Shown: positions 1 to 33,438 of the stretch, one piece after another
How positions within the stretch are numbered: position 1 is the first letter of the stretch
Layout of the letters: each line of letters begins with the position of its first letter
Assembly: GCA_900101355.1 (NCBI GenBank)
Contig: FMUV01000003.1
Coordinates: 62,001-126,000, forward strand
Direction of reading: 5' to 3'
Length of the DNA: 64,000 nt
Source: Ruminococcus sp. YE282
Lineage (GTDB): Bacteria > Bacillota > Clostridia > Oscillospirales > Acutalibacteraceae
Notes under the pieces: generated by a model
What the model was told of the DNA's origin: nothing
Seen by the model: only the letters and a program-made list of their open reading frames with translations
Databases searched by the model: none
Position numbers and translations under genes: made by a program

Positions 1-791
1 ATAACTATAAGCCAAATCCAAAGGCAAAGTTAAGATTGTTCTGCTTCCCGAACGGTTTCAGAAGCGCCGATATGTTTGACGAATGGCAGAAAAAGCTTGG
101 TGATGATATTCAGGTTTGTGCAATTATGATTCCCGGACTTGACATTCAGAGAATAAAAGAAAATGCGCCTACCGACGTTAACAAATTTGTTGAAAAACTT
201 GAAAAGGTATTGGAAGACGCTGGATTGCTTGACGTTCCGTGTTCATCTTTCGGACACAGCTGGGGTTCCCTGTTCTCTTACAGACTGGGATACAAGCTTT
301 CACACAATCCAAAGGCTGATTACAGAAAGCTGTTTATATCGGGTTACACAAGTCCGCAAATTAAAAACTCAAGTATAGTTAAAATTCTTAATGAGATTAA
401 ACCGCAGGGCTTTAACCGTATTCCTGAGTATAGAGAAGTCAGAGACGACCCTAAGGCAATTGACGTTATTGCAAAAGCGTACCAAAAGGTTTGGGATTAC
501 GACGAGAGCAGCACAAAGGCAATATTGCCGCTTCTGCTGTCGGCTTGCTGCATTATTGACAGATATGAGCATAATCCCGATGAGAAATTTGAAGTGCCGA
601 TTGTAGGTTTCCACGGCATTGACGACTATATTGTAGACATTGATGAAATGAATGCATGGGAGAATATTACTTCGGATTCGTTCAAACTTTACACAATGGC
701 AGGCGACCATCAGTTTGTTAATGAGAACCAGTCCGAAGACAGATTGATAGGGCTTATCAGGCAAGAAATTGACGAATTTGTTTCAGATTAA
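1..791 (+). CDS. Thioesterase (type II-like or C-terminal TE domain of a megasynthase), 5' partial
   Basis: An alpha/beta-hydrolase thioesterase of the GrsT/type II TE kind. The nucleophile motif G-H-S-W-G lies at 252-266, a late acidic residue sits in GIDDYIV, and the catalytic His in MAGDHQF. The frame is open to base 3 and reads NYKPNPKAKLRLFCFPNG before the first possible start (TTG at 36). That is the usual N-terminal strand of this family, so the gene begins left of the window. It is either a stand-alone editing thioesterase that removes stalled acyl groups from carrier proteins, or the chain-releasing domain of the last PKS/NRPS module. Its position before the accessory PKS genes fits both. 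Family call is firm; the choice between the two roles needs upstream sequence. Confidence 0.85.
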   Translation, partial: NYKPNPKAKLRLFCFPNGFRSADMFDEWQKKLGDDIQVCAIMIPGLDIQRIKENAPTDVNKFVEKLEKVLEDAGLLDVPCSSFGHSWGSLFSYRLGYKLSHNPKADYRKLFISGYTSPQIKNSSIVKILNEIKPQGFNRIPEYREVRDDPKAIDVIAKAYQKVWDYDESSTKAILPLLLSACCIIDRYEHNPDEKFEVPIVGFHGIDDYIVDIDEMNAWENITSDSFKLYTMAGDHQFVNENQSEDRLIGLIRQEIDEFVSD

Positions 792-997
792 TTGCATATA
801 TTTTTCGCAAATATTTTTCCAAATACTATATCATATTTTGTTTTAATATGGTATAATAAGTCTGCATTATTCGTTCTGTTTTTTAATTAAGTACACAAAA
901 TGTTTACGGCAAAACAAGGGAGAATTTTTATATAATTTGCTTTTTTGTGTTTTCTTACAAATAATGTGGAACGGGTTACTTGAATGGAGGTAATATA

Positions 998-1924
998 GTG
1001 TCGAACTATGTGTTAAAAACAACAAACTTATGTAAGTGTTTTAAATCATATAAGGCCTTGGACAATGTATCTGTTACTTTGGAAAAAGGAAAAATCTATG
1101 GTTTAATCGGAAAAAACGGTGCCGGCAAAACAACTCTTATGAGAATTGTTTCGGGACTCAGTTATGCAACCGAAGGCACAATTGAATTGTTTGGTGCTTC
1201 AAGCGCCAAAGAATACAACAAGCAACTGTCGAAAATCGGTACGCTGATTGAATATCCGAGCCTTAACGGAAGAATGACCGCAAAGCAGAATATTAAGCTT
1301 GTTAAAATTATGAGAGGCATAAAAGACAAGTCGGTTGATGACGAACTGCTTGAAATGGTCGGACTTGGCAGTGTTGACCCAAAGAAAAAGGTTAAGGATT
1401 TTTCCCTTGGTATGAGGCAAAGACTCGGAATTGCAATTGCAATGCTGACAAACCCCGAACTTTTGATTTTGGACGAACCTGTAAACGGTTTGGACCCGGT
1501 TGGTGTTGTTGAGATACGAAATCTTATCAAAAAACTTAACCAGGAAAAGAATATTACGGTTTTGATTTCAAGCCATAATTTGCCGGAACTGTATCAGACC
1601 GCAACAGATTATATTATTATTGACAAAGGCGTTATAAAGCAAACATTAACGCTTGACGAACTTGAAAAGAAATGTGAGCATTATCTTTCAATTACTTGTG
1701 ACGATCCCGATAAGGCAATAAAGGTAATTGAAAATGAACTCGGAACAAAGAAATACAAGAGAATGCAGGATGGAAGCATAAGACTGTATGACTTTGTGGA
1801 CGAGAAGCAGAAGGTATCGGATGCTTTGTTTAATAATCACATAAAGGTTTATGAATTCTCACGCCTTGGTGAGACTTTGGAAAATTACTTTTTGAGCGTT
1901 ATAGGAGAGAGCGGAAATGTTTAA
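998..1924 (+). CDS. ABC exporter ATP-binding subunit (BcrA/lantibiotic-exporter type)
   Basis: 308 aa nucleotide-binding protein of an ABC-2 exporter. Walker A GKNGAGKTT, the signature FSLGMRQ, Walker B LLILDEP and an H-loop SSH are all present, followed by a C-terminal extension of about 90 residues typical of bacitracin/lantibiotic-immunity ATPases. The GTG at 998 is preferred because GGAGGT at 986-991 lies 6 nt upstream; the longer TTG frame from 980 would bury this ribosome binding site inside the gene. It overlaps the start of its permease by 8 nt, so the two are translationally coupled. Within this cluster it probably exports or gives immunity to the polyketide product; the substrate is unknown. 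Confidence 0.9.
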   Translation: MSNYVLKTTNLCKCFKSYKALDNVSVTLEKGKIYGLIGKNGAGKTTLMRIVSGLSYATEGTIELFGASSAKEYNKQLSKIGTLIEYPSLNGRMTAKQNIKLVKIMRGIKDKSVDDELLEMVGLGSVDPKKKVKDFSLGMRQRLGIAIAMLTNPELLILDEPVNGLDPVGVVEIRNLIKKLNQEKNITVLISSHNLPELYQTATDYIIIDKGVIKQTLTLDELEKKCEHYLSITCDDPDKAIKVIENELGTKKYKRMQDGSIRLYDFVDEKQKVSDALFNNHIKVYEFSRLGETLENYFLSVIGESGNV

Positions 1925-2714
1925 TTTAATTAAAGCAGAGCTTTATAAAATGTCTAAGATGACATCTATATATATCAGTTTTTTGATATGCTGTGTTAGT
2001 GCGATAGGCGTTACATATGTTTTGTACGGAATTAACCAGGGAACATTTGAGCTTGAGATGAGCACAAACGTTTCATTGCTTGGAGACAGTATGTTGGTTT
2101 CCTTGTTGGGAGGTATTTTGTCGGGTGTTTTAATTGCCGGAGACTTTACCAACAAGAACATTCACAGCCAGATTGTTTGCGGCAAGGGAAGACTGGCAAT
2201 TATTTTGTCTAAGTTCTTTGCCTTTGCAATCGGAATGGTATTTATCACTCTGCCTTATGTAATCACATCTGTTATTGGTTTTGCTACCGAAATGGATTGT
2301 CACGACCTTATCGGTGTTCCGTCTCAGTTTATGGACGTTTTGACAAATGCCGACGGAGTAGAGGTTAACGGCGGTCACATAGCAAAAGCTGTTCTTGTCG
2401 TTTTACTTATAGTATTTCTCTATATTGCAAGGCTCAGCATCTGTATTCCGGTTGCATTTAAGACCAAAAAGACTATCCCGGTAATTATCACCGGATTTGT
2501 ATCGGCATTCTTGTTTGACATTATTTCTTCTGCCGTTAGCAGTGTTGACGGAATTTCAGATTTCTTCTCGGCTTTGCCGTACTCAATGATGACAGAGTGT
2601 ACAATGAGTGTTGACACAGAGGGAGTAATTAAGATATTAATCAGCGGCATTGTATTTACAGCAGCAATGCTTGCAATTACATTTGCAATGTTCCGTAAGG
2701 ACGAAGTAAAATAA
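1917..2714 (+). CDS. ABC-2 type permease subunit
   Basis: 265 aa hydrophobic protein with about six membrane segments (for example near residues 18-38, 60-78, 95-120, 155-180, 185-205 and 240-258). The N-terminus MFNLIKAELYKMSKMTS is typical of ABC-2 permeases that pair with BcrA-like ATPases. The ATG lies inside the last codons of the ATPase gene. It forms the membrane half of the exporter with the preceding gene. Confidence 0.85.
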   Translation: MFNLIKAELYKMSKMTSIYISFLICCVSAIGVTYVLYGINQGTFELEMSTNVSLLGDSMLVSLLGGILSGVLIAGDFTNKNIHSQIVCGKGRLAIILSKFFAFAIGMVFITLPYVITSVIGFATEMDCHDLIGVPSQFMDVLTNADGVEVNGGHIAKAVLVVLLIVFLYIARLSICIPVAFKTKKTIPVIITGFVSAFLFDIISSAVSSVDGISDFFSALPYSMMTECTMSVDTEGVIKILISGIVFTAAMLAITFAMFRKDEVK

Positions 2715-2769: not shown

Positions 2770-3582
2770 ATGAAAAGAGTACATTGGTTTGAATTTATGG
2801 ATTTTAAATGGTTTCCGAATTTCCTGCGCGATATCATTACGGACACAATAAAAGTCAGCGACAAAAATCCGATGTTTGACAGAATTGTTCCTGTTATAGT
2901 TAATGCGTTAGACCAAAGCAAGACAAACACAGTTGTTGACCTTTGCTCTGGCGGCGGTGGTCCTTGGTTTCGTCTGTTCAATTTAATCAAGGCAGAAAAG
3001 CCTGATTTTGAATTGGTATTAACAGATTTGTATCCGAATAAAAAAACAATAGACAGTATTCCGGCAGAATTTAAAGAAAAAGTTGAGTACATAACAGAAC
3101 CTGTTGATGCAACCGACGTTCCTGCGTCGCTAAAAGGTGTTCGTACTTTCTTCGGAAGCTTCCACCACATGCGCCCGCAACAGGCAAAGCAGATTCTTGA
3201 ATGTGCTGCAAAAGAAAATAACGGAATTGTTGTTGGCGAGGCGGCTATGTTTCCGCGTGAAAAATCTTGGCTTATATTGATTTTGCAGATTGTGTTCTTT
3301 CCGCTGTATTTAATTATGTATTGGGTCATGGCTGCAAAAGCAATTAAGGGCAGCGTTCTAACCAAAATTCTTAGATTTATTTTAGTATATCCTATCCCTT
3401 TGATTCCGCTTATTATGATGTGGGACAGTGCGGTTTCTGCAATGAGGGTGTACACAAAAGAGGATTTGGATAATCTTATAAAAGATATCAAGGTTGACGG
3501 TTATATTTTTGAAGCAAAGAAAATTCCGTCTTATCGGGACAAACCGGCAATACATTATTGTGTCGGTTATCCTTGTGATTAA
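2770..3582 (+). CDS. Class I SAM-dependent methyltransferase-like protein with hydrophobic segments
   Basis: 270 aa. A glycine-rich SAM-binding loop (VVDLCSGGGGPW, residues about 54-65) follows an N-terminal helix region, and an acidic motif (VLTDLYPN) ends the second strand as in Rossmann methyltransferases. After the core there are two hydrophobic helices (around residues 163-183 and 198-215), suggesting membrane association. The ATG at 2770 follows GGGAGGG at 2757-2763; the frame's TTG at 2755 overlaps that site and is unlikely. It sits between two exporter pairs in the PKS cluster, so tailoring of the polyketide is possible, but the substrate cannot be seen. Confidence 0.65.
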   Translation: MKRVHWFEFMDFKWFPNFLRDIITDTIKVSDKNPMFDRIVPVIVNALDQSKTNTVVDLCSGGGGPWFRLFNLIKAEKPDFELVLTDLYPNKKTIDSIPAEFKEKVEYITEPVDATDVPASLKGVRTFFGSFHHMRPQQAKQILECAAKENNGIVVGEAAMFPREKSWLILILQIVFFPLYLIMYWVMAAKAIKGSVLTKILRFILVYPIPLIPLIMMWDSAVSAMRVYTKEDLDNLIKDIKVDGYIFEAKKIPSYRDKPAIHYCVGYPCD

Positions 3583-3647
3583 ATATAATTTTATGATTAC
3601 TAACTAACAAACTAAAAATATAATTTAAATGTTTGGAGGCAAATTGT

Positions 3648-3860
3648 ATGTTTGGTAAAAAAAGTTCACAGGAAAAGGCAAGCTACGTTGTTCAGGTAAA
3701 AGAAGACGGAAGCATTGTTTTGCCAAAGGAAGCAATGGATATGTTCGGTATTGTTCCGGGCGATAACGTTGCAGTTTTGGGCGAAAAATCTAAGGGCGGC
3801 TTGGTTATCATCAAAAATGATATGATGGTAAAGATGCTTATGAAAGGTCAGGCGAATTAA
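3648..3860 (+). CDS. AbrB/SpoVT-type DNA-binding regulator
   Basis: 70 aa swapped-hairpin AbrB family protein. The core has the usual layout: VVQVKEDGSIVLPKEAMDMF, then GIVPGD and a final strand GGLVII. It is a likely transition-state-type transcriptional regulator. ATG 3648 is set by GGAGG at 3635-3639. It lies 2 nt before an ABC exporter ATPase, so it probably controls that exporter and perhaps the whole cluster; the target is inferred from position only. Confidence 0.8.
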   Translation: MFGKKSSQEKASYVVQVKEDGSIVLPKEAMDMFGIVPGDNVAVLGEKSKGGLVIIKNDMMVKMLMKGQAN

Positions 3861-3862
3861 GG

Positions 3863-4591
3863 TTGAATTCAATTGAAATTAAGAACTTGACGCGCAAGTT
3901 CAAGACAAGAACCGCTGTTGATTCTTTGAATCTTGAAATTGGCGAGGGTGAAATGTTTGCTTTGCTCGGACAGAACGGTGCCGGCAAATCAACAACAATC
4001 AATATGCTTTCGTGTATATTGATTCCTACTGACGGAGATGCATTTATCTACGGACACAGTATTAAGAACGATTATGAAAAGGTTAAGGAAATAATCAACG
4101 GTTCTCCTCAGGAAACAGCCGTTGCACCGAAGCTTACCGTAAAAGAAAACCTTGAGCTTATTGCAAGAATATACGGCTGTGACAAGGAAGAAGCCGAAAA
4201 ACGTGCTAATGAGATGATGACACAGTTTAAACTTGCTGACAGAGCAAACGACAAGGCAAAGTCTTTGTCGGGCGGTATGCAGAGAAGACTGAGCATTGCA
4301 ATGGCATTGATTTCTGACCCAAAGGTTCTGTTCTTGGACGAACCTACACTCGGTCTTGATGTAAGAGCAAGAAAAAATCTTTGGGAAGCTATTGCTGAAC
4401 TTAAGGGTAAGATTACAATAATACTTACAACACATTATCTTGAGGAAGCAGAAAACTTGGCCGACAGAATCGGAATAATGAATAACGGAAAGCTCAAAGC
4501 CCTTGGTACGGTTGATGAAATTCTGAAAATTACAAATAAGACTAAGTTTGAAGATGCTTTTCTGAGTTTGACCGATACGGAGGTAGAATAA
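3863..4591 (+). CDS. ABC-2 exporter ATP-binding subunit (DrrA type)
   Basis: 242 aa ATPase: Walker A GQNGAGKST, signature LSGGMQRR, Walker [13 protein letters not shown] and the H-loop TTHYLEEAENLADR, which is typical of drug-resistance DrrA/CcmA-like subunits. It starts with TTG at 3863 just after the regulator gene; AGGTCAGG about 10 nt upstream is the best ribosome binding site. The permease follows without a gap. This is a second exporter in the PKS cluster, different in subtype from the one at 998-2714. Confidence 0.9.
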   Translation: MNSIEIKNLTRKFKTRTAVDSLNLEIGEGEMFALLGQNGAGKSTTINMLSCILIPTDGDAFIYGHSIKNDYEKVKEIINGSPQETAVAPKLTVKENLELIARIYGCDKEEAEKRANEMMTQFKLADRANDKAKSLSGGMQRRLSIAMALISDPKVLFLDEPTLGLDVRARKNLWEAIAELKGKITIILTTHYLEEAENLADRIGIMNNGKLKALGTVDEILKITNKTKFEDAFLSLTDTEVE

Positions 4592-5326
4592 ATGAGATTT
4601 TTAAACTTTTCTTCAAGAAACCGTAAAGAAATTTTAAGAGACCCTTTGAGTTTGGTTTTCGGTATAGGATTTCCTGTAATAATGTTGGCACTGTTTTCTG
4701 TGCTTTCTAACAGTATTCAGGGAATGCCAAAAGAGATTTTTTCAATTTCAAACTTTGCTCCCGATATGGTTGTGTTTGGATTATCATTTATAACACTGTT
4801 CTTGGGAACATTGATGGCTAACGACAGAAAAAGTTCATTCCTTACAAGACTTTTTTCATCTCCTCTTAAAAAGAGAGATTATGTTTGGGGATACCAGTTC
4901 CCAATGGTAATAATGGCTATTTTGCAGGCTATTGTATGCTTTATTGCATCATTAATTTTCGGCTTGGAATTTACACCAAGGATTTTCCTTGCACTTGTTG
5001 TTATTATTCCAGTAAGTCTTTTGTACATTTCATTCGGTCTGTTACTTGGAACTTTCTTTTCACCTGAACAGGTTGGCGGTATGGGTTCAATGATTGTCAG
5101 TGTATCAATCATTTTGAGCGGTACATTCTTTGATTTGGACACAATGGAAGGCGGCTTTGCTACTTTCTGTAATATCCTTCCTTTCAGACACGCTGTTGAC
5201 TCAATTCAGTATACATTGTCCGGAGATTATAAAGAAGTAATTATAAATCTTATTTGGGTACTTGTGTATGCAGGTGTTATAAGAGGAGTTGCAACCGAGT
5301 TCTTTGGCAAACAGATGAGATATTAA
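4592..5326 (+). CDS. ABC-2 exporter permease (DrrB type)
   Basis: 244 aa membrane protein with about six hydrophobic segments and the ABC-2 family pattern. A cytoplasmic loop LFSSPLKKRDYVWGY follows the second membrane segment, and LLLGTFFSPEQVGGMGSM is a typical ABC-2 signature region. The ATG follows directly on the ATPase stop codon, so the pair is coupled. A hairpin at 5338-5379 follows. Confidence 0.88.
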   Translation: MRFLNFSSRNRKEILRDPLSLVFGIGFPVIMLALFSVLSNSIQGMPKEIFSISNFAPDMVVFGLSFITLFLGTLMANDRKSSFLTRLFSSPLKKRDYVWGYQFPMVIMAILQAIVCFIASLIFGLEFTPRIFLALVVIIPVSLLYISFGLLLGTFFSPEQVGGMGSMIVSVSIILSGTFFDLDTMEGGFATFCNILPFRHAVDSIQYTLSGDYKEVIINLIWVLVYAGVIRGVATEFFGKQMRY

Positions 5327-5541: not shown

Positions 5542-6267
5542 GTGGACGCTTTTTTAAAAGAAATTGACTATGACAATAATATTCATAAAATCGGAGTGTC
5601 ATTTATTGATTTTAATGAGATAAATTATGATAATTCAGAGCTTAGCAAAATGCTGTCTATGAAAGAATATCTTGAACTTCAAACAATGAAATTCGAGAAG
5701 AGAAAGCACGATTATGTTTTGGGAAGACTTTGCTCAAAAATTGCTGTTCAGCAGATTTATCCCGAATTAAATTACAGTCAGATTGATGTTTCAAACGGAG
5801 TTTTTAATCAGCCTGTGGTTAACATACCAAACAACAGTATTCAAATTTCGCTGTCACATTGCAACGATTACGGAATTGCAATTGCGTTTGACGAATCTAT
5901 TCCGATGGGTATAGACATTGAGGAGATAAAAGAAAGAAACTATAAGGTTATTAAGAGTCAACTTACGCAGGGCGAAATGAATATAATAGATGAAGACGAA
6001 AACCCTTGGTTGTTTACTGCTTTTTGGGCACTAAAAGAAGCAATATCAAAAGCCCTTAAAACGGGTTTTTTGACACCTATCGAAGTTTATGAAATTTCAG
6101 AATATAAGATTGATGAAAATATGCTGACTTGCGAGTTTAAAAACTTTCCTCAGTTTGCAAGCACTGCGTATGTAACCGAAAACTATGTTACTGCGGTTGT
6201 GTTCCCAAATCGAATTGAAAACGAGTTTGGAATTGACTTTTTTAAGAATTTAAAAACTTTGTGTTGA
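5542..6267 (+). CDS. Sfp-type 4'-phosphopantetheinyl transferase
   Basis: 241 aa. It converts apo to holo carrier proteins by moving phosphopantetheine from CoA onto the ACP/PCP serine. The Sfp-family motifs are clear: SLSHC (residues 103-107), MGIDIEEI (122-129, Mg-binding Asp125) and FWALKEAISK (161-170, with W162, K165, E166). Length fits the broad-specificity Sfp class rather than the ~120 aa AcpS class. The start is a GTG with only a weak ribosome binding site. It is placed before the PKS accessory operon, so it most likely activates the megasynthase and the dedicated ACP at 13150. Confidence 0.9.
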   Translation: MDAFLKEIDYDNNIHKIGVSFIDFNEINYDNSELSKMLSMKEYLELQTMKFEKRKHDYVLGRLCSKIAVQQIYPELNYSQIDVSNGVFNQPVVNIPNNSIQISLSHCNDYGIAIAFDESIPMGIDIEEIKERNYKVIKSQLTQGEMNIIDEDENPWLFTAFWALKEAISKALKTGFLTPIEVYEISEYKIDENMLTCEFKNFPQFASTAYVTENYVTAVVFPNRIENEFGIDFFKNLKTLC

Positions 6268-6281: not shown

Positions 6282-6959
6282 ATGAAAAAAAGTTGCAGCG
6301 TATACATTATAAGAACAACCAATTTAAATATTATCAACTATTGTTATGTTGTCATTGACAATGAAACCAAAAAAACAGCCCTGATTGACCCGTCTTGGAA
6401 TATTGATTCAATAATAAAGGTGGTCAATAACATTGGCGGCTTGGTTGAAAAGGTGTTTTTAACACATTCGCATATTGACCATATTAATTTGGCAGATGAA
6501 TGTGCCGAGCGGTTTAATGCTCAAATATATATGAGTGAAATTGAGATAAATACATATGGCTTCAGCTGTAAAAACCTTTTGGGAGTAAGGGACAGACAAA
6601 TTGTAAACATAGGTAAAACCAACGTTCACTGCATTTCCACTCCGGGACATACGGCAGGAAGTATGTGCTTTTACTGCGACGGCAATTTTTTTACCGGAGA
6701 TACGGTCTTTATCGAAGGTTGCGGAATGTGTGATTTTCCCGGTGCATCGCCCGACGATATGTATCACAGCCTGCGGAAAATCAAGAGTATTATACCGAAA
6801 GATACGATAATATATCCTGCTCACAGTTACGGTGAAAAAGTGGGCAAGCCGTTTGGGTATTTACTTAACAATAACGTGTATTTTAACATTGACAATAAGG
6901 AACATTTTATAAAATTCAGAATGAGGAAAGACCAAAAAGGCCTGTTTGATTTCAAGTAA
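6282..6959 (+). CDS. PksB/BaeB-like metallo-beta-lactamase-fold hydrolase
   Basis: 225 aa. Zinc ligands of the glyoxalase II-like MBL fold are all present: THSHIDH (H62, H64, D66, H67), PGHT (H123), TGD (D140) and PAH (H181). The segment GCGMCDFPGASPDDMY is also the style seen in bacillaene-cluster PksB/BaeB proteins. ATG 6282 has GAGAGGA upstream. Proteins of this type are common companions of trans-AT PKS clusters; hydrolysis of acyl thioesters is the usual suggestion, but the exact role here is inference. Confidence 0.8.
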   Translation: MKKSCSVYIIRTTNLNIINYCYVVIDNETKKTALIDPSWNIDSIIKVVNNIGGLVEKVFLTHSHIDHINLADECAERFNAQIYMSEIEINTYGFSCKNLLGVRDRQIVNIGKTNVHCISTPGHTAGSMCFYCDGNFFTGDTVFIEGCGMCDFPGASPDDMYHSLRKIKSIIPKDTIIYPAHSYGEKVGKPFGYLLNNNVYFNIDNKEHFIKFRMRKDQKGLFDFK

Positions 6960-6986: not shown

Positions 6987-7943
6987 ATGGGGAGCAAGTA
7001 TTTTTTGTACTCCGGACAGGGTTCTCAATATATGAATATGGGCAAAAAGCTCTATATGGAGGATGAGACCTTTTCAAAATATATGAGATATCTGGATGAT
7101 ATTGTTATTGATGAAACAGGAGATTCCGTTATTGAGTATATGTACAACGAACCGCTGATGACTTACAAGATTTTCGATAACATTATTTTTACACACCCGG
7201 CTATATGCATGGTTGAGTATTCAATGACAAAGACGCTGAATAAACGCCGGATTATACCTGACGGATTGATTGGGTGCAGCTTGGGCGAATACACCGCAAT
7301 GGCTGTTGCGGGTGTTGTTGATATAGAAGAACTTATGCTTATAATTATAAAGCAGGCAAGGCTGCTTAGTCAAAGCAATATTTCAGGCGGAATGCTTGCA
7401 ATTATTGACGATTTTTCAAGGTATCAAAAATCTTATTTTGAAAGAATCGGTTTGCAGATTATATCTGTAAATCATAACAGCCATTTTATTGTTTCGGGAG
7501 ACAGAAACAGCATAGATAAATTGATTTATGATTTAAAAGGTAAAAATATAAATTATTTTGACTTGCCGGTAAAATACGGATTTCATTCAAGTAATATTGA
7601 GCCGTTTTACGATGTGTTTATGAATGAAGTGGCTGACATCACATTGAAAAAAGCAAAGATTCCGGTTTATTCCTGTTCACAGTGCAGACCGGTTAGCGAG
7701 TATACCAAAGATATGCTTTGGAATGTGGTGAGAAACAATATTATGTACAGAGAAGTTTTACAAAAGTATGTAAAAGAAAATGATGTACTTATTGATGTCG
7801 GTCCACAGGGCACACTTGCGGGTTTCAGCAAAAAAATTCTCAACAGAACATCGGGCATATTCAGCACAATGACTTTATTTAATCAAGAGCAAAAAGCCAT
7901 ATCTCAAATTGAAGATTATGTTAACAATAATAAGGCAAATTAA
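6987..7943 (+). CDS. Acyltransferase-like protein lacking the malonyl-binding Arg (candidate proofreading acyl hydrolase)
   Basis: 318 aa FabD-fold protein with the N-terminal GQGSQ motif (residues 10-14), an active-site serine in GCSLGEY (Ser98) and a catalytic His in GFHSS (His200). Aligned without gaps to the AT of the next gene, the usual G-H-S-L-G has become G-C-S-L-G. The Arg that clamps the malonyl carboxylate (Arg112 in the neighbour) is Gln123 here. Loss of that Arg argues against malonyl-CoA as substrate. It fits the AT-like acyl hydrolases of trans-AT clusters (PedC type) that clear wrongly loaded acyl groups from ACPs. Alternatively it transfers a different acyl starter. Confidence 0.8.
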   Translation: MGSKYFLYSGQGSQYMNMGKKLYMEDETFSKYMRYLDDIVIDETGDSVIEYMYNEPLMTYKIFDNIIFTHPAICMVEYSMTKTLNKRRIIPDGLIGCSLGEYTAMAVAGVVDIEELMLIIIKQARLLSQSNISGGMLAIIDDFSRYQKSYFERIGLQIISVNHNSHFIVSGDRNSIDKLIYDLKGKNINYFDLPVKYGFHSSNIEPFYDVFMNEVADITLKKAKIPVYSCSQCRPVSEYTKDMLWNVVRNNIMYREVLQKYVKENDVLIDVGPQGTLAGFSKKILNRTSGIFSTMTLFNQEQKAISQIEDYVNNNKAN

Positions 7944-7972: not shown

Positions 7973-10249
7973 ATGTTAGCTTATGTATTTCCCGGACAGG
8001 GGTCTCAGGTTGTCGGGATGGGAAAGGATTTGTTTGACGAATTCAAAGAATATGTTGACGCAGCAGACGAGATCTTGGGATATTCAATAAAGGAACTTTG
8101 TTTGGAAGACCCTAACGGAGTTCTTGGATTAACACAGTATACTCAGCCTGCTTTGTATGTTGTAAATGCGCTTACATATTTAAAAGAGGTAAAAACCACA
8201 GGTGTTAAACCTGATTTTGTTGCCGGACACAGCCTTGGTGAATACGATGCGCTGTTTGCGGCAGGTGTTTTTGATTTTGCAACGGGACTTAAACTTGTCC
8301 AGAAGCGCGGCGAGCTTATGTCACAAGCCAAGGGCGGCGGAATGGCTGCGGTTCTTGGACTTAAGGAAGAAGAAATCAGAAAGGTTTTAAAAGAAAAAAA
8401 TCTTTCATCTATCGACATTGCAAACCTCAACTCACCAAGCCAGACGGTTATTTCGGGTTTGAAAGAGGACATTGAGGCTGCCCAGACGATTTTTGAAGAG
8501 GCAGGAGCATTAAGATATGTTGTTTTAAAGGTTAGCGGTGCTTTCCATTCAAGATATATGAAAGAGGCTCAGGAAAAATTCGGTGAATTTATGAACCAGT
8601 TTGAGTTTAAAAAGCCTGAGATTACCGTTATTTCAAACCTTTATGCCCGTCCTTATAAAGCAAAGAACCTCAGAGAAACTTTGCTCGGACAGATTACTTC
8701 GTCGGTAAGATGGACTGAAACAATAAGATATATATGGGGCAAGGACGAAAATGTTGATATTGTTCAAATTGGCCCCGGCAATGTGCTTAAGGGACTCACA
8801 CGAGGCATAAAAAGAGATTGTCAGCCGTTGATTGTAAATGACGAAGACGATTTTGATGATACAGATGATGCAATTGAAGAGAGCGGCGTTGAGATTGAAG
8901 AGCTTAACAGCAGCAATTCATTGGGCAGCAAACTGTTTAAAGAAAGATACGGTTTGAACTATGCTTATGCGGCAGGTCCTATGTATTGTGAGATTTCATC
9001 AAAAGAATTTGTTGAAACAATGGCAAAGTCAAGAATGCTCTCGTTCTACGGCACGGCAGGTGTTGAGCTTAGCAAAATTGAAGAAGCATTGGAATATCTT
9101 AAGAAGAATATCGGCGACAAGGCTTCATACGGCGCTAACATTATGCCTGACATAATGAACGGTGAAAGAGAAGGCAAAATTGTAGACTTGCTTCTTAAAT
9201 ATGATGTTAAGACAGTACTGGCTTCGTTTTACATTAATATGACTCCGGAGCTTATAAGATATAAGGTAAACGGATTAAAGAGAGATTCGTCGGGCAAGGT
9301 TGTATCTACTAACAGAGTTATTGCAAAGCTGTCACGTCCTGAGGTTTTGAACTCGTTTTTGTCTCCGATTCCGTCTGAAATTCTCAGCAGTCTGTTGTCG
9401 GAAAACAAGATAACCAAGGAGCAGTTTGATATGGCACAGAATATTCCTGTTGCCGATGACGTTTGCGTAATTTCCGATTCAGCCGGAAATACAGATATGG
9501 GCGTTGCCTACACTATGATTCCTACAATGGTTAATCTTAGAAACGATTTGGTAAGCAAACACAATTACAGCAACTATGTTTGCATTGGTTGTGCCGGAGG
9601 AATCGGAACTCCTGACGCAATTGTTGCTGCTGTTATGCTTGGTGCGGAATTTGTTATGACAGGTTCAATCAATCAGTGTACGGTAGAAGCCAAAACAAGC
9701 GACACTGTTAAAAATATGCTTCAGGAAGCAGAGATTCAAGACACGGAATATATTGTGTCGGGCGATAATTTTGAATTTGGAACAAAGTCTCAGATTTTCA
9801 GAAAAGGCGTTTTGTTCCACGTTCGTGCAACAAAGCTTTATGAAACATACAAGCTTTATAATTCAATTGACGAGATTGACGATTATACCAAGAAGCAGAT
9901 TGAAGAAAGATATTTCCAAAAAAGCTTTGAACAAATTTATGATGAGATAAAAAGCACCTGCTCTCCGATTCAGCTTGAACGTATGCAGAGCAATCCGAAG
10001 TATAAAATGTCTATGATATTCAAGTGGTACTTTGACAACGGAACAAAGCTTGCTTTGAGCGGCAACGAGGACAGAGTTGTGGATTATATGATTAACTGCA
10101 GTTCTGCTATGGGTGCGTTTAACACATATGTTAAGGGTACAAACCTTGAAAACTGGCATAACAGAAATGCCGACGTAGTCGGAAAGCTGTTGATGGATCA
10201 GGCAGACTATTTATTAAAAAGAAAAATATCGGCTCTTAAAATGAATTGA
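7973..10249 (+). CDS. pksE: Trans-acting malonyltransferase fused to an FMN enoylreductase (PksE-like AT-ER)
   Basis: 758 aa bifunctional protein. Residues 1-285 are a complete AT: GQGSQ, GHSLGEY with Ser87, the malonyl-binding Arg112 in QKRGELM and His192 in GAFHS. A strongly acidic linker (about 285-310) leads to a PfaD/PksE-type FMN-dependent enoylreductase, with SFYGTAGVEL near 360 and the VCIGCAGGIGTPDAI phosphate-binding stretch near 540. It loads malonyl units in trans onto an AT-less megasynthase and reduces enoyl intermediates. This architecture is a hallmark of trans-AT clusters. AGGAGGAAGG precedes the ATG. The symbol refers to the Bacillus homologue. Confidence 0.92.
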   Translation: MLAYVFPGQGSQVVGMGKDLFDEFKEYVDAADEILGYSIKELCLEDPNGVLGLTQYTQPALYVVNALTYLKEVKTTGVKPDFVAGHSLGEYDALFAAGVFDFATGLKLVQKRGELMSQAKGGGMAAVLGLKEEEIRKVLKEKNLSSIDIANLNSPSQTVISGLKEDIEAAQTIFEEAGALRYVVLKVSGAFHSRYMKEAQEKFGEFMNQFEFKKPEITVISNLYARPYKAKNLRETLLGQITSSVRWTETIRYIWGKDENVDIVQIGPGNVLKGLTRGIKRDCQPLIVNDEDDFDDTDDAIEESGVEIEELNSSNSLGSKLFKERYGLNYAYAAGPMYCEISSKEFVETMAKSRMLSFYGTAGVELSKIEEALEYLKKNIGDKASYGANIMPDIMNGEREGKIVDLLLKYDVKTVLASFYINMTPELIRYKVNGLKRDSSGKVVSTNRVIAKLSRPEVLNSFLSPIPSEILSSLLSENKITKEQFDMAQNIPVADDVCVISDSAGNTDMGVAYTMIPTMVNLRNDLVSKHNYSNYVCIGCAGGIGTPDAIVAAVMLGAEFVMTGSINQCTVEAKTSDTVKNMLQEAEIQDTEYIVSGDNFEFGTKSQIFRKGVLFHVRATKLYETYKLYNSIDEIDDYTKKQIEERYFQKSFEQIYDEIKSTCSPIQLERMQSNPKYKMSMIFKWYFDNGTKLALSGNEDRVVDYMINCSSAMGAFNTYVKGTNLENWHNRNADVVGKLLMDQADYLLKRKISALKMN

Positions 10250-10272: not shown

Positions 10273-11538
10273 ATGGGCAAAGTTAATGTTGGAATCGAAG
10301 CAATTAATTACTACGGCGGTTCGGCATATGTTAATGTAAAAAAACTTGCAGAGTTAAGAAATTTGGATAATAACAGATTTGAAAACCTTCTTATGAAAGA
10401 AAAGTCCGTTCCTCTCAACTATGAGGATCCGATTTCGTTCGGCGTAAACGCCGCAAAGCCGATAATCGATTCTCTGAGTGATGAGGACAAGGACAGAATA
10501 GAGATGTTGGTTACCTGCACGGAGTCCGGAATAGATTTTGGTAAATCTATAAGTACATATATTCACCACTATCTCGGACTTAACAGAAATTGCAGATTGT
10601 TTGAGCTGAAAAACGCTTGTTTTTCCGGTTCGGCAGGATACCAAAACGCTTTGAATTTCGTTGCTTCTCAGGTAGCTCCCGGTGCAAAGGCATTGGTTAT
10701 TGCTACCGATATGATAAAATTTGCCGCTGCCGACGGCGGAGAGGCTCTTACAGCAGACTGGTCATTTGCAGAGTTAAGCGGAGGCGCAGGCGCAGTTGCT
10801 ATTTTGGTCAGCGAACAGCCTGATATTTTGGTTTCCGACTTTGGCGCAAACGGCTCTTACGGATATGAAATTATGGATACTTGCAGACCTATTACAAACG
10901 GTGAAGCAGGTAACGCAGATCTTTCGCTGATGTCATATCTTGACTGCTGCGAAGCTGCTTTTAAGGAGTATTGCAAGAGGGTTGCGGACGTTGATTATGT
11001 TAAGACATTTGACTATCTTGTGTTCCACACTCCGTTTGGCGGTATGGTAAAGGGTGCTCACAGAACAATGATGAGAAAGCTTTATAAGGCAAAGCCCGCT
11101 GTAATAGCCGAGGACTTTGACAAGAGAGTATTTCCCGGAATGCAGTATTGTATGCGTGTTGGCAATTCCTGCGGCGCTACTATTTTCCTTAACCTTATAA
11201 GCACAATATGTCACGGCGATTTTACAGAGCCAAAGCGTTTGGGCTTTTTCTCATACGGTTCCGGCTGTTGTTCGGAATTTTACAGCGGCGTTGTTACCAA
11301 GGAAGGTCAGGAAAAGCTGTTAAAGATGGATGTTAATAAGACGCTTGACGACAGATATGAGCTTTCTATGGACCAGTACGAGTTGATTTTGAGAAACAAC
11401 GGTTCGGTTGAATTTGGAACAAGAAATGCAGACATTGACTTTAATCTTGTGCCTGAGCCTTTTGAAAAACTGAAGGGCAAGGGAATACTTGTTTTAAACA
11501 AGATTAATGAATATCACAGGGAATATATCTGGGTATAA
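10273..11538 (+). CDS. pksG: HMG-CoA synthase homologue of the beta-branching cassette (PksG-like)
   Basis: 421 aa. It catalyses aldol-like addition of an ACP-bound acetyl unit to a beta-ketothioester on the PKS, the first step of beta-branching. The HMG-synthase triad is visible: Glu84 (TCTESG), Cys116 (KNACFSGSAG) and His252 (FHTPFGGM). ATG 10273 is chosen over the GTG at 10264 because AAGGA ends at 10262, right for 10273. It is a PksG-type enzyme by context, since it is directly followed by both ECH genes, the ACP and the decarboxylating KS; a mevalonate-pathway enzyme would not have this company. Confidence 0.92.
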   Translation: MGKVNVGIEAINYYGGSAYVNVKKLAELRNLDNNRFENLLMKEKSVPLNYEDPISFGVNAAKPIIDSLSDEDKDRIEMLVTCTESGIDFGKSISTYIHHYLGLNRNCRLFELKNACFSGSAGYQNALNFVASQVAPGAKALVIATDMIKFAAADGGEALTADWSFAELSGGAGAVAILVSEQPDILVSDFGANGSYGYEIMDTCRPITNGEAGNADLSLMSYLDCCEAAFKEYCKRVADVDYVKTFDYLVFHTPFGGMVKGAHRTMMRKLYKAKPAVIAEDFDKRVFPGMQYCMRVGNSCGATIFLNLISTICHGDFTEPKRLGFFSYGSGCCSEFYSGVVTKEGQEKLLKMDVNKTLDDRYELSMDQYELILRNNGSVEFGTRNADIDFNLVPEPFEKLKGKGILVLNKINEYHREYIWV

Positions 11539-11541
11539 TCA

Positions 11542-12300
11542 ATGGAAATCAATTTAAACGAATTTAAAGCGCTGAAAGTTTCCTTTAAGGACAAGATTTG
11601 CAGAATACAGTTTAATCGCCCCGAAAGCAAAAATACAATTGATTCGCAAACGGTAATTGAGCTTACGAAGATTTTGAATTATTGCGAAGACAAAATGAAC
11701 ATTGTAGTTTTAGAGGGCAATGACGAGGTCTTTTGCTTTGGTGCGGACTTTAAGCAGGAAAGCTCTTCCGACTCAAAAAAGCGTGAGCCTGGAGTGCTTT
11801 ACGACTTGTGGAAAAAGCTTGCCTGCGGTTCGTTTGTATCAATAGCATATGTCAAGGGCAGAGCAAATGCCGGAGGTATGGGGTTTGTTGCCGCAAGTGA
11901 TATTGTTATTGCCGGTGAAAATGCGATGTTCAGTCTTTCTGAACTGCTTTTCGGATTGTATCCTGCAATGGTGATGCCGTTTTTAATAAGAAAAATCGGT
12001 TTTCAAAAGGCTAAATATATGGCTCTTACAACAAAACCCGTTAATGTTCAAACAGCTTTTGAATGGGGAATAGTTGACGCCTTTGGCCCAAAAAGCGATA
12101 TGATTTTGGGACAGCATTTGGCAAGGCTTACCAAAATTCCCAAGTCAGCGGTTGTTGCTTATAAGAATTATATGAATAAACTTGATTTGTCTATTGAAAA
12201 TTTGGAAAGCGTTGCGGTGTCTGAAAATTTGAAAATGTTTTCTGATAAAGAAAATATGGAAAGAATCAGCCAATTTACGAATACAGGACAGATTTTATAA
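11542..12300 (+). CDS. pksH: Enoyl-CoA hydratase-like ECH1, dehydratase of beta-branching (PksH-like)
   Basis: 252 aa crotonase-fold protein. Strand/turn CFGADFKQES carries the first oxyanion-hole region, and GRANAGGMGF (about residue 112) the second. In HCS cassettes ECH1 dehydrates the HMG-ACP-type intermediate to a glutaconyl thioester. It starts 3 nt after the synthase stop. ECH1 rather than ECH2 is assigned from gene order and because the following gene has the distinctive ECH2 features. Confidence 0.85.
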   Translation: MEINLNEFKALKVSFKDKICRIQFNRPESKNTIDSQTVIELTKILNYCEDKMNIVVLEGNDEVFCFGADFKQESSSDSKKREPGVLYDLWKKLACGSFVSIAYVKGRANAGGMGFVAASDIVIAGENAMFSLSELLFGLYPAMVMPFLIRKIGFQKAKYMALTTKPVNVQTAFEWGIVDAFGPKSDMILGQHLARLTKIPKSAVVAYKNYMNKLDLSIENLESVAVSENLKMFSDKENMERISQFTNTGQIL

Positions 12301-12330
12301 TATTTTTATTGAATGGAATGAGGGAGTACT

Positions 12331-13095
12331 TTGCAGGAAAAAGTGATTTTTTTATCTGAGGTAAGACCCGGAGTTGCGTTAATTAAGATGGAGGACAGAG
12401 AAAACAAAAATCTTTTTACGCAGCAATTTATGAATGAGTTGTGCGCCGCCTTTGAAGAAGCGCAAAATGACGAAAAATACAAGGTTATAATTTTCACCGG
12501 ATTTGATAGCTATTTTGCAACCGGAGGAACAAAAGAAACTTTGCTTGCCATACAGCAGGGTAAGATGACGTTTTTGACAGAGGACGGAAAGAGCAATGTT
12601 TACAGCCTTCCGTTAGAGTGCAAGATACCCGTTATTGCGGCAATGCAGGGACACGCCATCGGCGGAGGACTTTCGCTGGGGCTGTTTGCGGATTTTGTGA
12701 TTATGTCTTTGGAGAGCATATATACCGCAAGCTTTATGAAGTACGGATTTACTCCGGGCTTTGGTTCAACATATATATTTCCCAAGAAACTGGGGATTCC
12801 CTTGGCAGAGGAGTTTTTGATTACAGCAAAAACTTTCAGAGGTCAGGATTTGATGAAGCGCGGAATACCGTTTGAGGTTTGCCGCAGACGAGAGGTTTTG
12901 GACAAGGCAATTGAGCTTGCAGAGTTGATTGCCGAAAAGCCGAGGACTTCACTGATTACGCTCAAGGACAATATGGTTGAAGAAATCAGGGCTAATCTTC
13001 CGCAGGCAATTGATAAGGAATTGGTTATGCACAACATTACATTCCATCAGCCGGAAGTCAAAGAAAAAATAATGGATTTATACGGTGAATCTTAA
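12331..13095 (+). CDS. pksI: Enoyl-CoA hydratase-like ECH2, decarboxylase of beta-branching (PksI-like)
   Basis: 254 aa crotonase-fold protein. The motifs YFATGGTKETLLAIQ and GHAIGGGLSLGLFADFV, then YTASFMKYGFTPGFG, are characteristic of PksI/CurF-type ECH2 decarboxylases, which remove CO2 from the glutaconyl intermediate to leave a beta-methyl (or exomethylene) branch. The start is TTG 12331 with GAGGGA at 12320-12325 upstream. It completes the dehydration-decarboxylation pair with the preceding gene. Confidence 0.9.
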   Translation: MQEKVIFLSEVRPGVALIKMEDRENKNLFTQQFMNELCAAFEEAQNDEKYKVIIFTGFDSYFATGGTKETLLAIQQGKMTFLTEDGKSNVYSLPLECKIPVIAAMQGHAIGGGLSLGLFADFVIMSLESIYTASFMKYGFTPGFGSTYIFPKKLGIPLAEEFLITAKTFRGQDLMKRGIPFEVCRRREVLDKAIELAELIAEKPRTSLITLKDNMVEEIRANLPQAIDKELVMHNITFHQPEVKEKIMDLYGES

Positions 13096-13149
13096 TTACT
13101 GAACAAGAGGTTTGGTATAAGAAATAAATTTTAGATAGGAAAATAAATT

Positions 13150-13395
13150 ATGAGCAAAGAAGAAATTTTTGAAATTATTAAAGAAAACATCTTAGACATT
13201 ATCCCCGAATTGGATTTGTCGGAAGTTACAATGAAAGACAGCCTTAAGGAAATCGGTGCAAACTCTGTTGACAGAGCCGATATTATTATGTTTACAATGG
13301 AATCTCTTAATATCAGAATACCTATGGTAAAATTCGGCAATGCCGCAAACATAGGCGATATTGTTGATATTATGTATGAGGCAAAGAATGAGTAA
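13150..13395 (+). CDS. acpK: Dedicated acyl carrier protein of the beta-branching cassette (AcpK-like)
   Basis: 81 aa ACP. The phosphopantetheine site is Ser39 in IGANSVDRADI, the N-S-V/I-D-R-A pattern typical of AcpK-type donor ACPs rather than the D-S-L of fatty-acid ACPs. It should carry malonyl and then, after KS0 decarboxylation, acetyl for the HMG-synthase homologue. The coding end overlaps the start of the KS gene by 8 nt. Confidence 0.9.
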   Translation: MSKEEIFEIIKENILDIIPELDLSEVTMKDSLKEIGANSVDRADIIMFTMESLNIRIPMVKFGNAANIGDIVDIMYEAKNE

Positions 13396-14665
13396 TGTTT
13401 ATATTACTGGAATGGGTTCAATTAATGCCCTTGGGCTTAATTGCCAAGAGTTTTCCGATTTATTAAAAAACGGAGTTAACGGAATTAAACGCAGCTCGTA
13501 CTTTTCTAAATTATCAGCGGACGTAAAAGTTGCGGCTGAAATCGGAGAATTCAAACTTTCAGAATATATAAAATCAAAGCCGATTGACAAAAGATTGCTC
13601 GAGGCGGTCAGACCCTTTAGAGGTTCCAGGACCACAATGGCAATTGATACTTTAATTGCTTCCGTTATGCAGGCATATGATATGGCAAAAATCAGCTGTG
13701 AAGATATGGAGCTGCACTCTGACAGAACTTCAATAGTTGTTGCAGGAAGTAATTTGAGCCAAAACAGAAATGATGAAATCAGAAACCGTTATTGCAATTC
13801 TAAAGAGTATGTAACTCCAAACTATGCAATTCAGTTTTTTGATACCAACTATGTTGGAATTTTAAGCGAGATATTTAAAATCAAAGGAGAGGGAATGACG
13901 GTTGGCAACGCCTCTGCAAGCGGTAATGCCGCTTTGATAAACGCTTACCGTATGGTAAAATCGGGCGTTTGCGACAGATGTGTTGTTGCGGCACCGATAG
14001 TTGATTTTTCTCCTTATGAATTGCAGAGCTTTAAAAATCTCGGAGCACTGGGCGGAGATGATTATGAGAATAATCCCGAACAAGCTTGCAGACCGTTTGA
14101 CGCTGCGCATAACGGGTTTATTCTTGGACAGGGATGCGGATGTATTATTTTAGAATCCGACAGGATTTTGGGAAATAATCGTTCAAAAGCTCTGGCTCAG
14201 GTTTTGTCGGGAAGCATAAAACTTGACGGAAATCGACTGTCTGACGCACGCTTGGACGGAGAATATTCTGCAATGAAAAATGCTGTTGAATATGCCGGTC
14301 TTAAAGCGGAGGACATAGATTATATCAACGCTCACGGAACTTCGACTCCTCTCGGAGACGATGTTGAATTATCGGCAATCAAGGAGCTTTTCGGGGCTGA
14401 TAACAATAACCTGAGGGTTAATTCAACAAAGGGTATGATTGGGCACTGTATGTTCTCGGCAGGCTTAATAGAGGCAATTGCCTGTGTTTTGCAAATGAAC
14501 GGCAATTTTGTTCACGGCAATGCCAATTTATCTAAACCTGTGGCGGAAGATGTACGGTTAGTCGGCAATAAGGCCGAGAATTATACTATTAAATATGCTT
14601 TGAATAATTCTTTTGGCTTTGGCGGAATAAATACTTCTGTTGTAATAAAAAATGTGAATATATAA
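13388..14665 (+). CDS. pksF: Decarboxylating ketosynthase KS0 with Cys-to-Ser active site (PksF-like)
   Basis: 425 aa thiolase-fold KS. The nucleophile position reads GNASASGN, so the usual active-site Cys is Ser176. His316 (INAHGTST) and His353 (MIGHCMFSAG) are kept. A Cys-to-Ser change with both His retained is the known state of HCS-cassette decarboxylases, which turn malonyl-ACP into acetyl-ACP and cannot condense. ATG 13388 has GAGG at 13378-13381 and overlaps the ACP stop; an earlier in-frame ATG at 13361 lies deep in the ACP and is unlikely. Confidence 0.92.
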   Translation: MSNVYITGMGSINALGLNCQEFSDLLKNGVNGIKRSSYFSKLSADVKVAAEIGEFKLSEYIKSKPIDKRLLEAVRPFRGSRTTMAIDTLIASVMQAYDMAKISCEDMELHSDRTSIVVAGSNLSQNRNDEIRNRYCNSKEYVTPNYAIQFFDTNYVGILSEIFKIKGEGMTVGNASASGNAALINAYRMVKSGVCDRCVVAAPIVDFSPYELQSFKNLGALGGDDYENNPEQACRPFDAAHNGFILGQGCGCIILESDRILGNNRSKALAQVLSGSIKLDGNRLSDARLDGEYSAMKNAVEYAGLKAEDIDYINAHGTSTPLGDDVELSAIKELFGADNNNLRVNSTKGMIGHCMFSAGLIEAIACVLQMNGNFVHGNANLSKPVAEDVRLVGNKAENYTIKYALNNSFGFGGINTSVVIKNVNI

Positions 14666-14691
14666 TACTTTATATGAATTGGAGGCATAGA

Positions 14692-15429
14692 ATGAGGTTA
14701 GAAGGAAAGACAGCTATTATTACCGGTGCTTCAAGGGGAATCGGCAGAGCAATTGCAATTAGATTTGCCCAAGAAGGCGCAAATCTTGCCCTGATATATG
14801 CAAGCAATGACGAAGCTATGAGAAATGTTTGCAATGAAGTTAGTCAGTATGGCGTTAAAGTTGAATCATATAAGTGTGATGTAAGCAACTATGAAGAAGT
14901 AAGCCAAACTGTAAAAAGTGTTAACGAGACATTCGGCGAAGTTGATATATTGGTTAACAATGCCGGTGTGGTTCGTGACGGAGTGGCTTTTTCAATAAAA
15001 GAAGAAGACTTTGACTTGGTAGTTGATACCAGCCTCAAAGGTGCCTTTCATATGATAAAGGCTTGCTACTACGGATTTATCCGCAGAAGATACGGAAAAA
15101 TTATTAACATTTCGTCAGTTTCGGGAATTTACGGAAACGCAGGACAGTCTAATTACTCATCGGCAAAAGCCGGCTTAATCGGTTTGACTAAGTCAATTGC
15201 TAAAGAGCTTGGCGTTCGCAATATTTGCTGTAATGCTGTTGCTCCCGGAATTATAGACACCGATATGACAAGCAATATTTCGTATGATGAAAAACGACTG
15301 GAGGCAATATCGCTGAGACGTATCGGAAAGCCTGAAGATGTTGCAAATGCAGTATTGTTTTTGGCAAGCAGTGAGAGTGATTACATAACAGGTGAAGTGC
15401 TTAAGGTTGACGGAAACCTTGCTATGTAA
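14692..15429 (+). CDS. Stand-alone 3-ketoacyl reductase (FabG-like SDR)
   Basis: 245 aa short-chain dehydrogenase. NADPH site ITGASRGIGRA (residues 9-19), NNAG motif (LVNNAGVVRDG) and the catalytic Ser-Tyr-Lys (ISSVSG, then NYSSAKAG) are all present. ATG 14692 follows GGAGG at 14681-14685; the in-frame ATG at 14674 lies before that site. As the last gene of the cluster operon it probably acts in trans as the ketoreductase of a module lacking one, or as a starter-unit enzyme; a fatty acid synthesis role is possible. Confidence 0.85.
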   Translation: MRLEGKTAIITGASRGIGRAIAIRFAQEGANLALIYASNDEAMRNVCNEVSQYGVKVESYKCDVSNYEEVSQTVKSVNETFGEVDILVNNAGVVRDGVAFSIKEEDFDLVVDTSLKGAFHMIKACYYGFIRRRYGKIINISSVSGIYGNAGQSNYSSAKAGLIGLTKSIAKELGVRNICCNAVAPGIIDTDMTSNISYDEKRLEAISLRRIGKPEDVANAVLFLASSESDYITGEVLKVDGNLAM

Positions 15430-23385: not shown

Positions 23386-23398
23386 CGGAGGTAATTAT

Positions 23399-23734
23399 AT
23401 GAATGTAAACTTTAACGGCTACGGCGAAAACGTTGCGACTTTTGTTGCGGACAGCAGTTTGACTGCGGCAGGCGTGCCTGTGAAAATTACGGCTGACGGA
23501 ACCGTCGGCAAGTGTTCGGCAAACGATATATTTTGCGGAATTTGTGTTGGACTGCGTGACGGATACGCCGCTGTTCAGCTTTCAGGATATGCAAAGGTGG
23601 ACGTTACCGCCAAACTTACGCTCGGATATTCAAAACTTGCCGCGGCGGCAAGCGGCAAAGTGGCTGCAAACACTAACGGCAGGGATATTCTTGTTATTGA
23701 TTCCACAACGACAAGCGCAGGTATAATTCTTTAA
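23399..23734 (+). CDS. Phage head decoration-like protein
   Basis: 111 aa, beta-rich and alanine/glycine-rich (for example LAAAASGKVAANTNG). It lies between the protease and the major capsid gene, where capsid decoration or head-stabilising proteins are usually coded. GGAGGTAATTAT precedes the ATG. Function is from position and composition only. Confidence 0.6.
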   Translation: MNVNFNGYGENVATFVADSSLTAAGVPVKITADGTVGKCSANDIFCGICVGLRDGYAAVQLSGYAKVDVTAKLTLGYSKLAAAASGKVAANTNGRDILVIDSTTTSAGIIL

Positions 23735-23751
23735 TACAAGGAGGAGAAAAT

Positions 23752-24759: not shown

Positions 24760-24772
24760 CGGAGGTGATTGT

Positions 24773-25897: not shown

Positions 25898-25898
25898 C

Positions 25899-29569: not shown

Positions 29570-29570
29570 T

Positions 29571-33384: not shown

Positions 33385-33438
33385 GTAAGTGTTAATGCAA
33401 ACGGGCATTTACGGTAAAAATTTTTAGGAGTGAGAATT

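Follow-up and report, generated by a model that had tools for sequence, protein, structure and literature searches.

The window analysed here is a stretch of 64,000 nucleotides from Ruminococcus sp. YE282 (contig FMUV01000003.1, positions 62,001 to 126,000). With high probability, five of its genes, at positions 10,273 to 14,665, form a beta-branching (HCS) cassette that works with a neighbouring trans-acyltransferase (trans-AT) polyketide synthase (PKS) of 15 ketosynthase (KS) domains. This cassette likely places one methyl or exomethylene branch on a chain bound to the small protein PksD, at module 8 of 15. The reading is carried by the gene content, the catalytic residues, the tryptophan flags of PksD, the grouping of the ketosynthase KS9 and the collinearity with a gene cluster of Paenibacillus apiarius. 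The source contig (C52) is 143 kb long in a genome of 2.54 Mb, the window corresponds to C52:62001-126000, and the first 62 kb of the contig, left of the window, were analysed as well. PksA to PksG are names coined in this analysis and do not denote the Pks proteins of Bacillus subtilis.

The beta-branching cassette

The genes for HCS (the 3-hydroxy-3-methylglutaryl (HMG)-acyl carrier protein synthase), ECH1, ECH2, the donor acyl carrier protein (ACP) and the ketosynthase KS0 lie on one strand in unbroken order, with intergenic gaps of at most 54 bases (Table 1). The first ATG of the KS0 gene gives an 8-base overlap with the ACP gene. The donor ACP was recognized by its PRK07117 score and has no Pfam match at E 0.001.

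Residues E87, C119 and H255 of HCS (numbered from the GTG), which we take to be its catalytic Glu-Cys-His, are invariant in 18 aligned sequences. D69 and E134 of ECH1 align with D68 and E137 of B. subtilis PksH, H234 of ECH2 aligns with H230 of PksI, and the nucleophile position of KS0 is Ser185. Each of these residues of ECH1, ECH2 and KS0 is kept in at least 95% of its own alignment, made of the window protein and those of 68 of 71 (ECH1), 57 of 60 (ECH2) and 50 of 69 (KS0) loci with a match, low-identity or short matches having been dropped. Families and residues thus bear out the earlier note on this DNA, which had proposed a complete cassette in unbroken order with its catalytic residues kept. 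According to the available sections of PMC7501309, PksH E137A and PksI H230A are strongly impaired and PksH D68A is impaired.

Among solved structures, HCS, ECH1 and ECH2 come closest to PksG, PksH and PksI, respectively, of the bacillaene pathway of B. subtilis. HCS scores 609 bits with that PksG, 606 with CurD and 420 with an 'HMG-CoA synthase-like protein' (8s81). That HCS might be a housekeeping enzyme of the mevalonate pathway, with unrelated crotonases next to it, has a negligible probability: HMG-CoA synthase Pfam domains do match it, but the best mevalonate-type enzyme among the solved structures reaches 169 bits, about 440 below PksG, the score with TIGR01835 is 222.6 bits for a cut-off of 360.35, and the gene stands in a full cassette with PKS neighbours. 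We therefore ruled out a mevalonate HMG-CoA synthase. The kinship check suggested in the earlier note gave a PksG/CurD-type enzyme, as judged by bit scores against solved structures.

The assembly line left of the cassette

The trans-AT megasynthase that the earlier note had proposed to look for upstream is present, as seven PKS proteins with 15 KS domains and ATs encoded in trans. All of their reading frames are open, up to 6641 residues, and all 15 KS domains have the Cys-His-His triad. The same test applied to 103 KS domains found six with another triad, all in the bacillaene, kalimantacin and difficidin sets. A genome-wide KS search gave 22 matches, namely the 15 PKS domains, KS0, two single-KS proteins of 413 residues (on contigs C56 and C42), and two each in proteins of 790 and 776 residues (C36 and C60).

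In the 18 inter-KS segments, ACP, ketoreductase (KR) and dehydratase (DH) domains and one thioesterase (TE) were found, and no AT, methyltransferase, condensation or adenylation domain matched at E 0.001. Genes for an AT and an AT-enoylreductase (AT-ER) are present in the window; alignment revealed one dead AT relic, in PksG. The Ser of its GHSxG motif is replaced in all 38 homologues that have the region (39 matches, one without it), and this widely kept dead AT may have a structural or docking role. Domain searches and alignments led to the 15 putative modules M1 to M15 of Table 1. Modules 3, 6, 7 and 8 are without KR, and the FabG-like protein and AT-ER could be their trans partners.

Likely site of the branch

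PksD consists of two ACPs with identical GLDSIIGVEWIRS cores, both with Trp at Ser+6. We take this to be the exact position of the published branching flag, as the reference clusters compared here also support. In a census with the ACP model, which includes some weak matches, Trp occupies this position at 2 of the 22 sites of the present line and at 2 of the 17 of P. apiarius; the counts are 3 of 15 for Streptomyces buecherae, 2 of 15 for bacillaene, 7 of 14 for kalimantacin and none of 12 for macrolactin. The names of the Bacillus and Pseudomonas clusters are those that we presume from organism and protein sizes. A Trp pattern match at residue 719 of PksE falls within a DH region, and the ACP model does not count it. 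The accessible text of PMC10006238 indicates that the flag predicts branch sites well, but argues that it does not fix specificity.

KS9, the first KS of PksE, is 66% identical to KS9 of P. apiarius, 63% to the bacillaene KS that follows the flagged ACPs and 62% to KS8 of S. buecherae, which likewise follows flagged ACPs; the next match is at 49%. In the KS tree, it groups with this bacillaene KS with a support of 0.81. Thus, both features that the earlier note had suggested searching for, tandem ACPs with the branching Trp and a KS of a branching clade, were found. In P. apiarius, the counterparts of PksB, PksA and PksD form a single protein, which leads to the order C-B-A-D-E-F-G and to a branch likely introduced at module 8 of 15.

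By analogy with the bacillaene and curacin enzymes, an AT would load malonyl onto the donor ACP, KS0 would decarboxylate it to acetyl-ACP, and on the PksD-bound chain HCS would join the acetyl carbon to the beta-ketone. ECH1 would then take off water and ECH2 CO2, after which KS9 would accept the chain for extension by PksE, PksF and PksG and release by the thioesterase of PksG. The working order, the substrate, what each enzyme does and how the chain is released are as we infer them.

Several observations weigh against this scheme. KS0, at 440.6 bits, is just below the PRK07103 cut-off of 445, and ECH2 has a Thr in place of the PksI K80 lysine, together with a loop insertion. The Trp flag is not universal, being found in none of 13 difficidin and none of 12 Lachnotalea sites, in stretches that may be incomplete, and virginiamycin ACPs carry Phe at that position (PMC10006238, accessible text). 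Some KS pairs have weak support in the tree (0.09 for KS15, 0.10 for KS11). PksA and PksD are encoded by separate, divergently transcribed genes, and hence their pairing is putative. More genes could exist to the left, where the contig stops 460 bases beyond PksA, although a PKS complete as it stands is what the collinearity with P. apiarius argues for.

Two side observations concern the flags and PksD. Lachnotalea glycerini (L105-L107) has an HCS-bearing trans-AT cluster whose tandem ACPs carry Met or Ile where the flag would stand (LGVDSINGIEM, LGIDSINGIEI); it may represent a natural exception to the Trp flag. The C-terminal tail of PksA after its last KS (L001:541-865) contains ITLDSP twice and LYPK/LTPK three times; these repeats are possibly short linear docking motifs for PksD.

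Nature of the predicted branch

The loop insertion of ECH2 and its Thr at the K80 position leave both a methyl and an exomethylene branch as candidates. Lys is absent from this position in 30 of 61 ECH2 rows, and an insertion of at least three residues after it occurs in nine, eight of which are without the Lys. The carriers are the window, P. apiarius, five Streptomyces loci, one of Phytoactinopolyspora and one of Paenibacillus dendrobii (L086), the last being the only one to keep the lysine. We considered whether the missing Lys makes ECH2 a broken enzyme and dropped this idea since the lysine is dispensable in PksI: the K80A mutant is as active as the wild type, and H230A is the only one of four PksI mutants that is compromised (PMC7501309, available sections). 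A different possibility, to which we give a substantial but minority weight, is that the cassette is intact and the branch is not a plain methyl, with the variant ECH2 leading to an exomethylene or to a further-modified or carboxylated branch. The insertion, mostly coupled to Lys loss, speaks for it, whereas the frequency of Lys loss, the behaviour of K80A, the kept catalytic His and the closer resemblance of ECH2 to PksI than to CurF speak against it.

Distribution and host

HCS was found only in the window's own genome when we searched 98 relatives, 394 genomes drawn from the order and 161 of the genus. In other assemblies there is one relative with 89% identity, and there are several with 70-74%. 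In a tree of 49 HCS sequences, with rough FastTree supports, the window protein joins eight metagenome proteins, the nearest of which (P0002) is the one at 89%. With midpoint rooting, three groups part without clear order: that of the window, one of Streptomyces, and a third in which P. apiarius branches near the base and bacillaene is deeply nested. By identity to the window HCS, P. apiarius (70-71%) comes before Streptomyces (61-67%) and bacillaene (about 63%); that of Bacillus halotolerans is 71% identical. The G+C content of the PKS genes (0.406) matches that of the window right of the cluster (0.410), and composition therefore gives no sign of a foreign or recent arrival. A search of the genus for the empty site using the neighbouring apbE gene matched 34 of 60 genomes and defined no such site; apart from the window's own genome, the matches were weak, the one with the best E-value being 67% over 440 bases.

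Its presence in a single genome of the genus, and a deletion in the dead AT of PksG relative to P. apiarius, would fit a pathway that this host acquired, retains by chance and does not use to make anything, being silent or in decay. We regard this as unlikely given the intact KS triads, the open PKS frames, the relatives in other assemblies and the even G+C content.

The host belongs to the Ruminococcus bromii group. Its pyruvate phosphate dikinase (PPDK) is 99% identical to that of a metagenome-assembled genome (MAG) named R. bromii, and another protein, at 95%, also bears this name; the species assignment was thus left at group level. In the human colon, R. bromii is considered a keystone species of starch degradation. 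The R. bromii-type PPDK and a dockerin-CBM26-amylase in the same window agree with the starch-degrading, gut Ruminococcus-like host deduced in the earlier note. An assembly chimaera or binning error that joined a foreign cluster to a Ruminococcus contig is very improbable: in its favour, none of the other 160 genomes of the genus that were searched has HCS, and among named organisms the closest relative is from a Paenibacillus, but a single contig carries both the cluster and these R. bromii-type genes, the G+C content does not change across the join (C52:77000-80000), and the metagenome relatives at 89% are nearer than Paenibacillus at 71%.

Two further observations concern the host. To the right of the cluster, at a distance of about 4 kb and ahead of an enolase gene, is a prophage (window 19647-30047) with a terminase (PF03237) and structural-looking genes identified by eye. 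No FabH was recognized in the genus: its model TIGR00747 matched at E 1e-3 in 2 of 41 genus genomes (the window's own and 40 others) and reached its cut-off in none, while it matched 13 of 14 control genomes, above cut-off in eight.

Neighbouring genes

The genes that flank the cassette encode a phosphopantetheinyl transferase (PPTase), predicted to activate the ACPs, a metallo-beta-lactamase-fold (MBL) hydrolase, the AT, the AT-ER and the FabG-like reductase, the set needed by a trans-AT pathway. The MBL hydrolase scores 176 bits against the SolJ model, below its cut-off of 350. The FabG-like protein is possibly a trans-acting ketoreductase for the KR-less modules. The AbrB-like protein, ABC ATPase and membrane protein at 3633..5326 are 41%, 60% and 38% identical to P. 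apiarius proteins encoded in the same order after the TE gene; they are possibly a regulator and an exporter. The other ABC pair has no counterpart of its own there, its ATPase matching the place of the other ABC ATPase and its membrane protein being unmatched. The methyltransferase-like (MT) protein, identified by eye, has no Pfam match at E 1e-5, and its P. apiarius counterpart is encoded between ECH2 and fabG.

Table 1. Genes, PKS proteins and modules. Positions are those of the window unless preceded by C52.
Feature	Position	Strand	Details
TE, C-terminus of PksG	3..791	+	PF00975; GHSWG motif; 56% to P. apiarius, 51% to S. buecherae TE
ABC transporter ATPase and membrane protein	980..2714	+	PF00005
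MT-like protein	2770..3582	+	45% to P. apiarius
AbrB-like small protein (by eye, no Pfam match), ABC ATPase, membrane protein	3633..5326	+	PF00005
PPTase	5542..6267	+	PF01648, 49.9 bits
MBL hydrolase	6282..6959	+	PF00753; 47% to P. apiarius
Free-standing AT (trans-AT)	6987..7943	+	PF00698, 116 bits
AT-ER (FabD-like and PfaD-like), trans-acting	7973..10249	+	fabD 367 bits, pfaD_fam 535 bits, both above cut-off
HCS, HMG-ACP synthase of beta-branching	10273..11538	+	ATG at 10273; GTG at 10264 also open
ECH1, dehydratase	11542..12300	+	PRK07112, 326 bits (cut-off 250); PksH, 259 bits
ECH2, decarboxylase	12331..13095	+	PRK07110 'polyketide synthase', 346 bits (cut-off 215); PksI, 308 bits; CurF, 219 bits
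Donor ACP	13150..13395	+	PRK07117, 93.7 bits (cut-off 79)
KS0, decarboxylating ketosynthase	13388..14665	+	Ser for Cys; PRK07103, 440.6 bits
FabG-like reductase	14674..15429	+	Directly after KS0; 65% to P. apiarius, 58% to S. buecherae
Dockerin-CBM26-amylase	33430-36426		
PksA	C52:461-20386	-	
PksB	C52:20404-26367	-	
PksC	C52:26598-32729	-	
PksD	C52:33610-34470	+	Free-standing ACP-ACP
PksE	C52:34467-51137	+	
PksF	C52:51254-58090	+	
PksG	C52:58115-62791	+	Last PKS protein; its end is window 3-791
M1			PksC KS-KR-ACP-ACP
M2			PksC KS / PksB KR-ACP
M3			PksB KS / PksA ACP-ACP
M4			KS-DH-KR-ACP-ACP
M5			KS-DH-KR-ACP
M6 and M7			KS-(DH relic)-ACP-ACP
M8			PksA KS / PksD ACP-ACP, both ACPs flagged
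M9 and M10			PksE KS-DH-KR-ACP
M11			KS-DH-ACP
M12			KS-DH-KR / PksF ACP
M13			KS-ACP
M14			KS-ACP-KR, KR with degenerate glycine motif
M15			PksG KS-(dead AT)-(DH-like)-ACP-TE

Comparison with known systems

A scan of one genome per species returned 366 stretches with an HCS relative, of which the best 80, representing 79 distinct loci, were kept. Among these loci, compared over at most 21 kb and often less, only that of the wheat-associated P. apiarius MW-14 (L008; NZ_JAFFHZ010000001) shows PPTase, MBL, AT, AT-ER, ACP, KS0, HCS, ECH1, ECH2, MT and FabG together. Its assembly line, like that of the window cluster, has 15 KS domains, a flagged ACP pair before KS9 and a terminal module with a dead AT and a TE. 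For all 15 KS domains, the best match among 75 reference KS domains is from P. apiarius, at the same position for nine of them (1, 2 and 9-15). KS3, KS4, KS7 and KS8 match within a repeated group of P. apiarius, and KS5 and KS6 both match its KS5. The KS types of positions 3-8 are arranged 2+2+2 here and 2+1+3 in P. apiarius; thus, the lines are alike with a middle that is not identical. Of 18 window genes that were compared, fifteen have their own counterpart position in P. apiarius (TE, AbrB-like, one ABC pair, PPTase, MBL, AT, AT-ER, ACP, KS0, HCS, ECH1, ECH2, MT and FabG). In contrast, its PKS comprises four proteins, with the B+A+D chain ending in the flagged ACPs and followed by a single E+F chain, where the genes are separate here; it has no match for the first ABC pair or apbE of the window, and its HCS is only 70% identical.

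S. buecherae AC541 has a shorter line, with 13 KS domains and none pairing with KS1 or KS2. Three flagged ACPs precede its KS8, which pairs with KS9, and its terminal-module KS is 62% identical. Counterparts of HCS, ECH1, ECH2, ACP, KS0, AT, AT-ER, FabG and TE were found, with the AT and KS0 genes on the other strand, whereas the 74-kb stretch has no match for the MBL, PPTase, MT and ABC genes. No named product of the P. apiarius or Streptomyces cluster was found in the literature listings searched.

The bacillaene cluster of Bacillus (pks/bae) shares HCS, ECH1, ECH2, ACP, KS0 and a flagged tandem ACP after which comes a KS of the same clade, but its assembly line is different and includes KS domains without the Cys-His-His triad. 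The bacillaene synthase contains nonribosomal peptide synthetase parts. We ruled it out as the identity of the window system, in which the 18 segments have no condensation or adenylation match and every KS has the triad. Aurantinin (art), considered on account of the 71% identity of a B. halotolerans HCS, was ruled out too: its PKS has C-methyltransferase domains and Trp ACPs in modules 3 and 4 (PMC8302727, accessible part), whereas no methyltransferase matched in the segments and the flags here are confined to PksD.

A broader interpretation, which we put forward tentatively and consider rather doubtful as a whole, is that one unit, the entire beta-branched pathway from PKS to exporter, is common to the wheat-associated Paenibacillus and to a rare relative of R. 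bromii from the gut, a shorter form of it occurring in Streptomyces. The pathway would make a bioactive polyketide of a new class, which would be released by the conserved terminal module, with the dead AT and DH-like domain of that module repurposed. The complex polyketides of gut anaerobes such as R. bromii are little explored, and as the Paenibacillus cluster is collinear, an aerobe that grows more readily can be screened for the product, the branch providing a clear mass and nuclear magnetic resonance signature to search for. The 60-kb assembly line can also be compared module by module across three lineages.

Earlier work on such lines includes a study of 2021 whose first author is presumably Helfrich. 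It describes two related trans-AT lines of 13/14 modules and unprecedented clade composition in MAGs assigned to Ruminococcus (PMC7930024, accessible text). They belong to the same host group and are about as long as the window cluster, which may be the same as, or a sister of, these lines; in that text, the section on them names no branching cassette, relative or product. Nothing closer on gut trans-AT lines with branching appeared among the matches listed or in the accessible part of PMC12282076. The earlier note had called such a product unusual in a gut anaerobe, which is true within the genus (one of 161 genomes), but trans-AT lines had already been reported from gut Ruminococcus MAGs in PMC7930024. 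The kind of system is known; what is new here is its anatomy, its likely branch site and its relatives.

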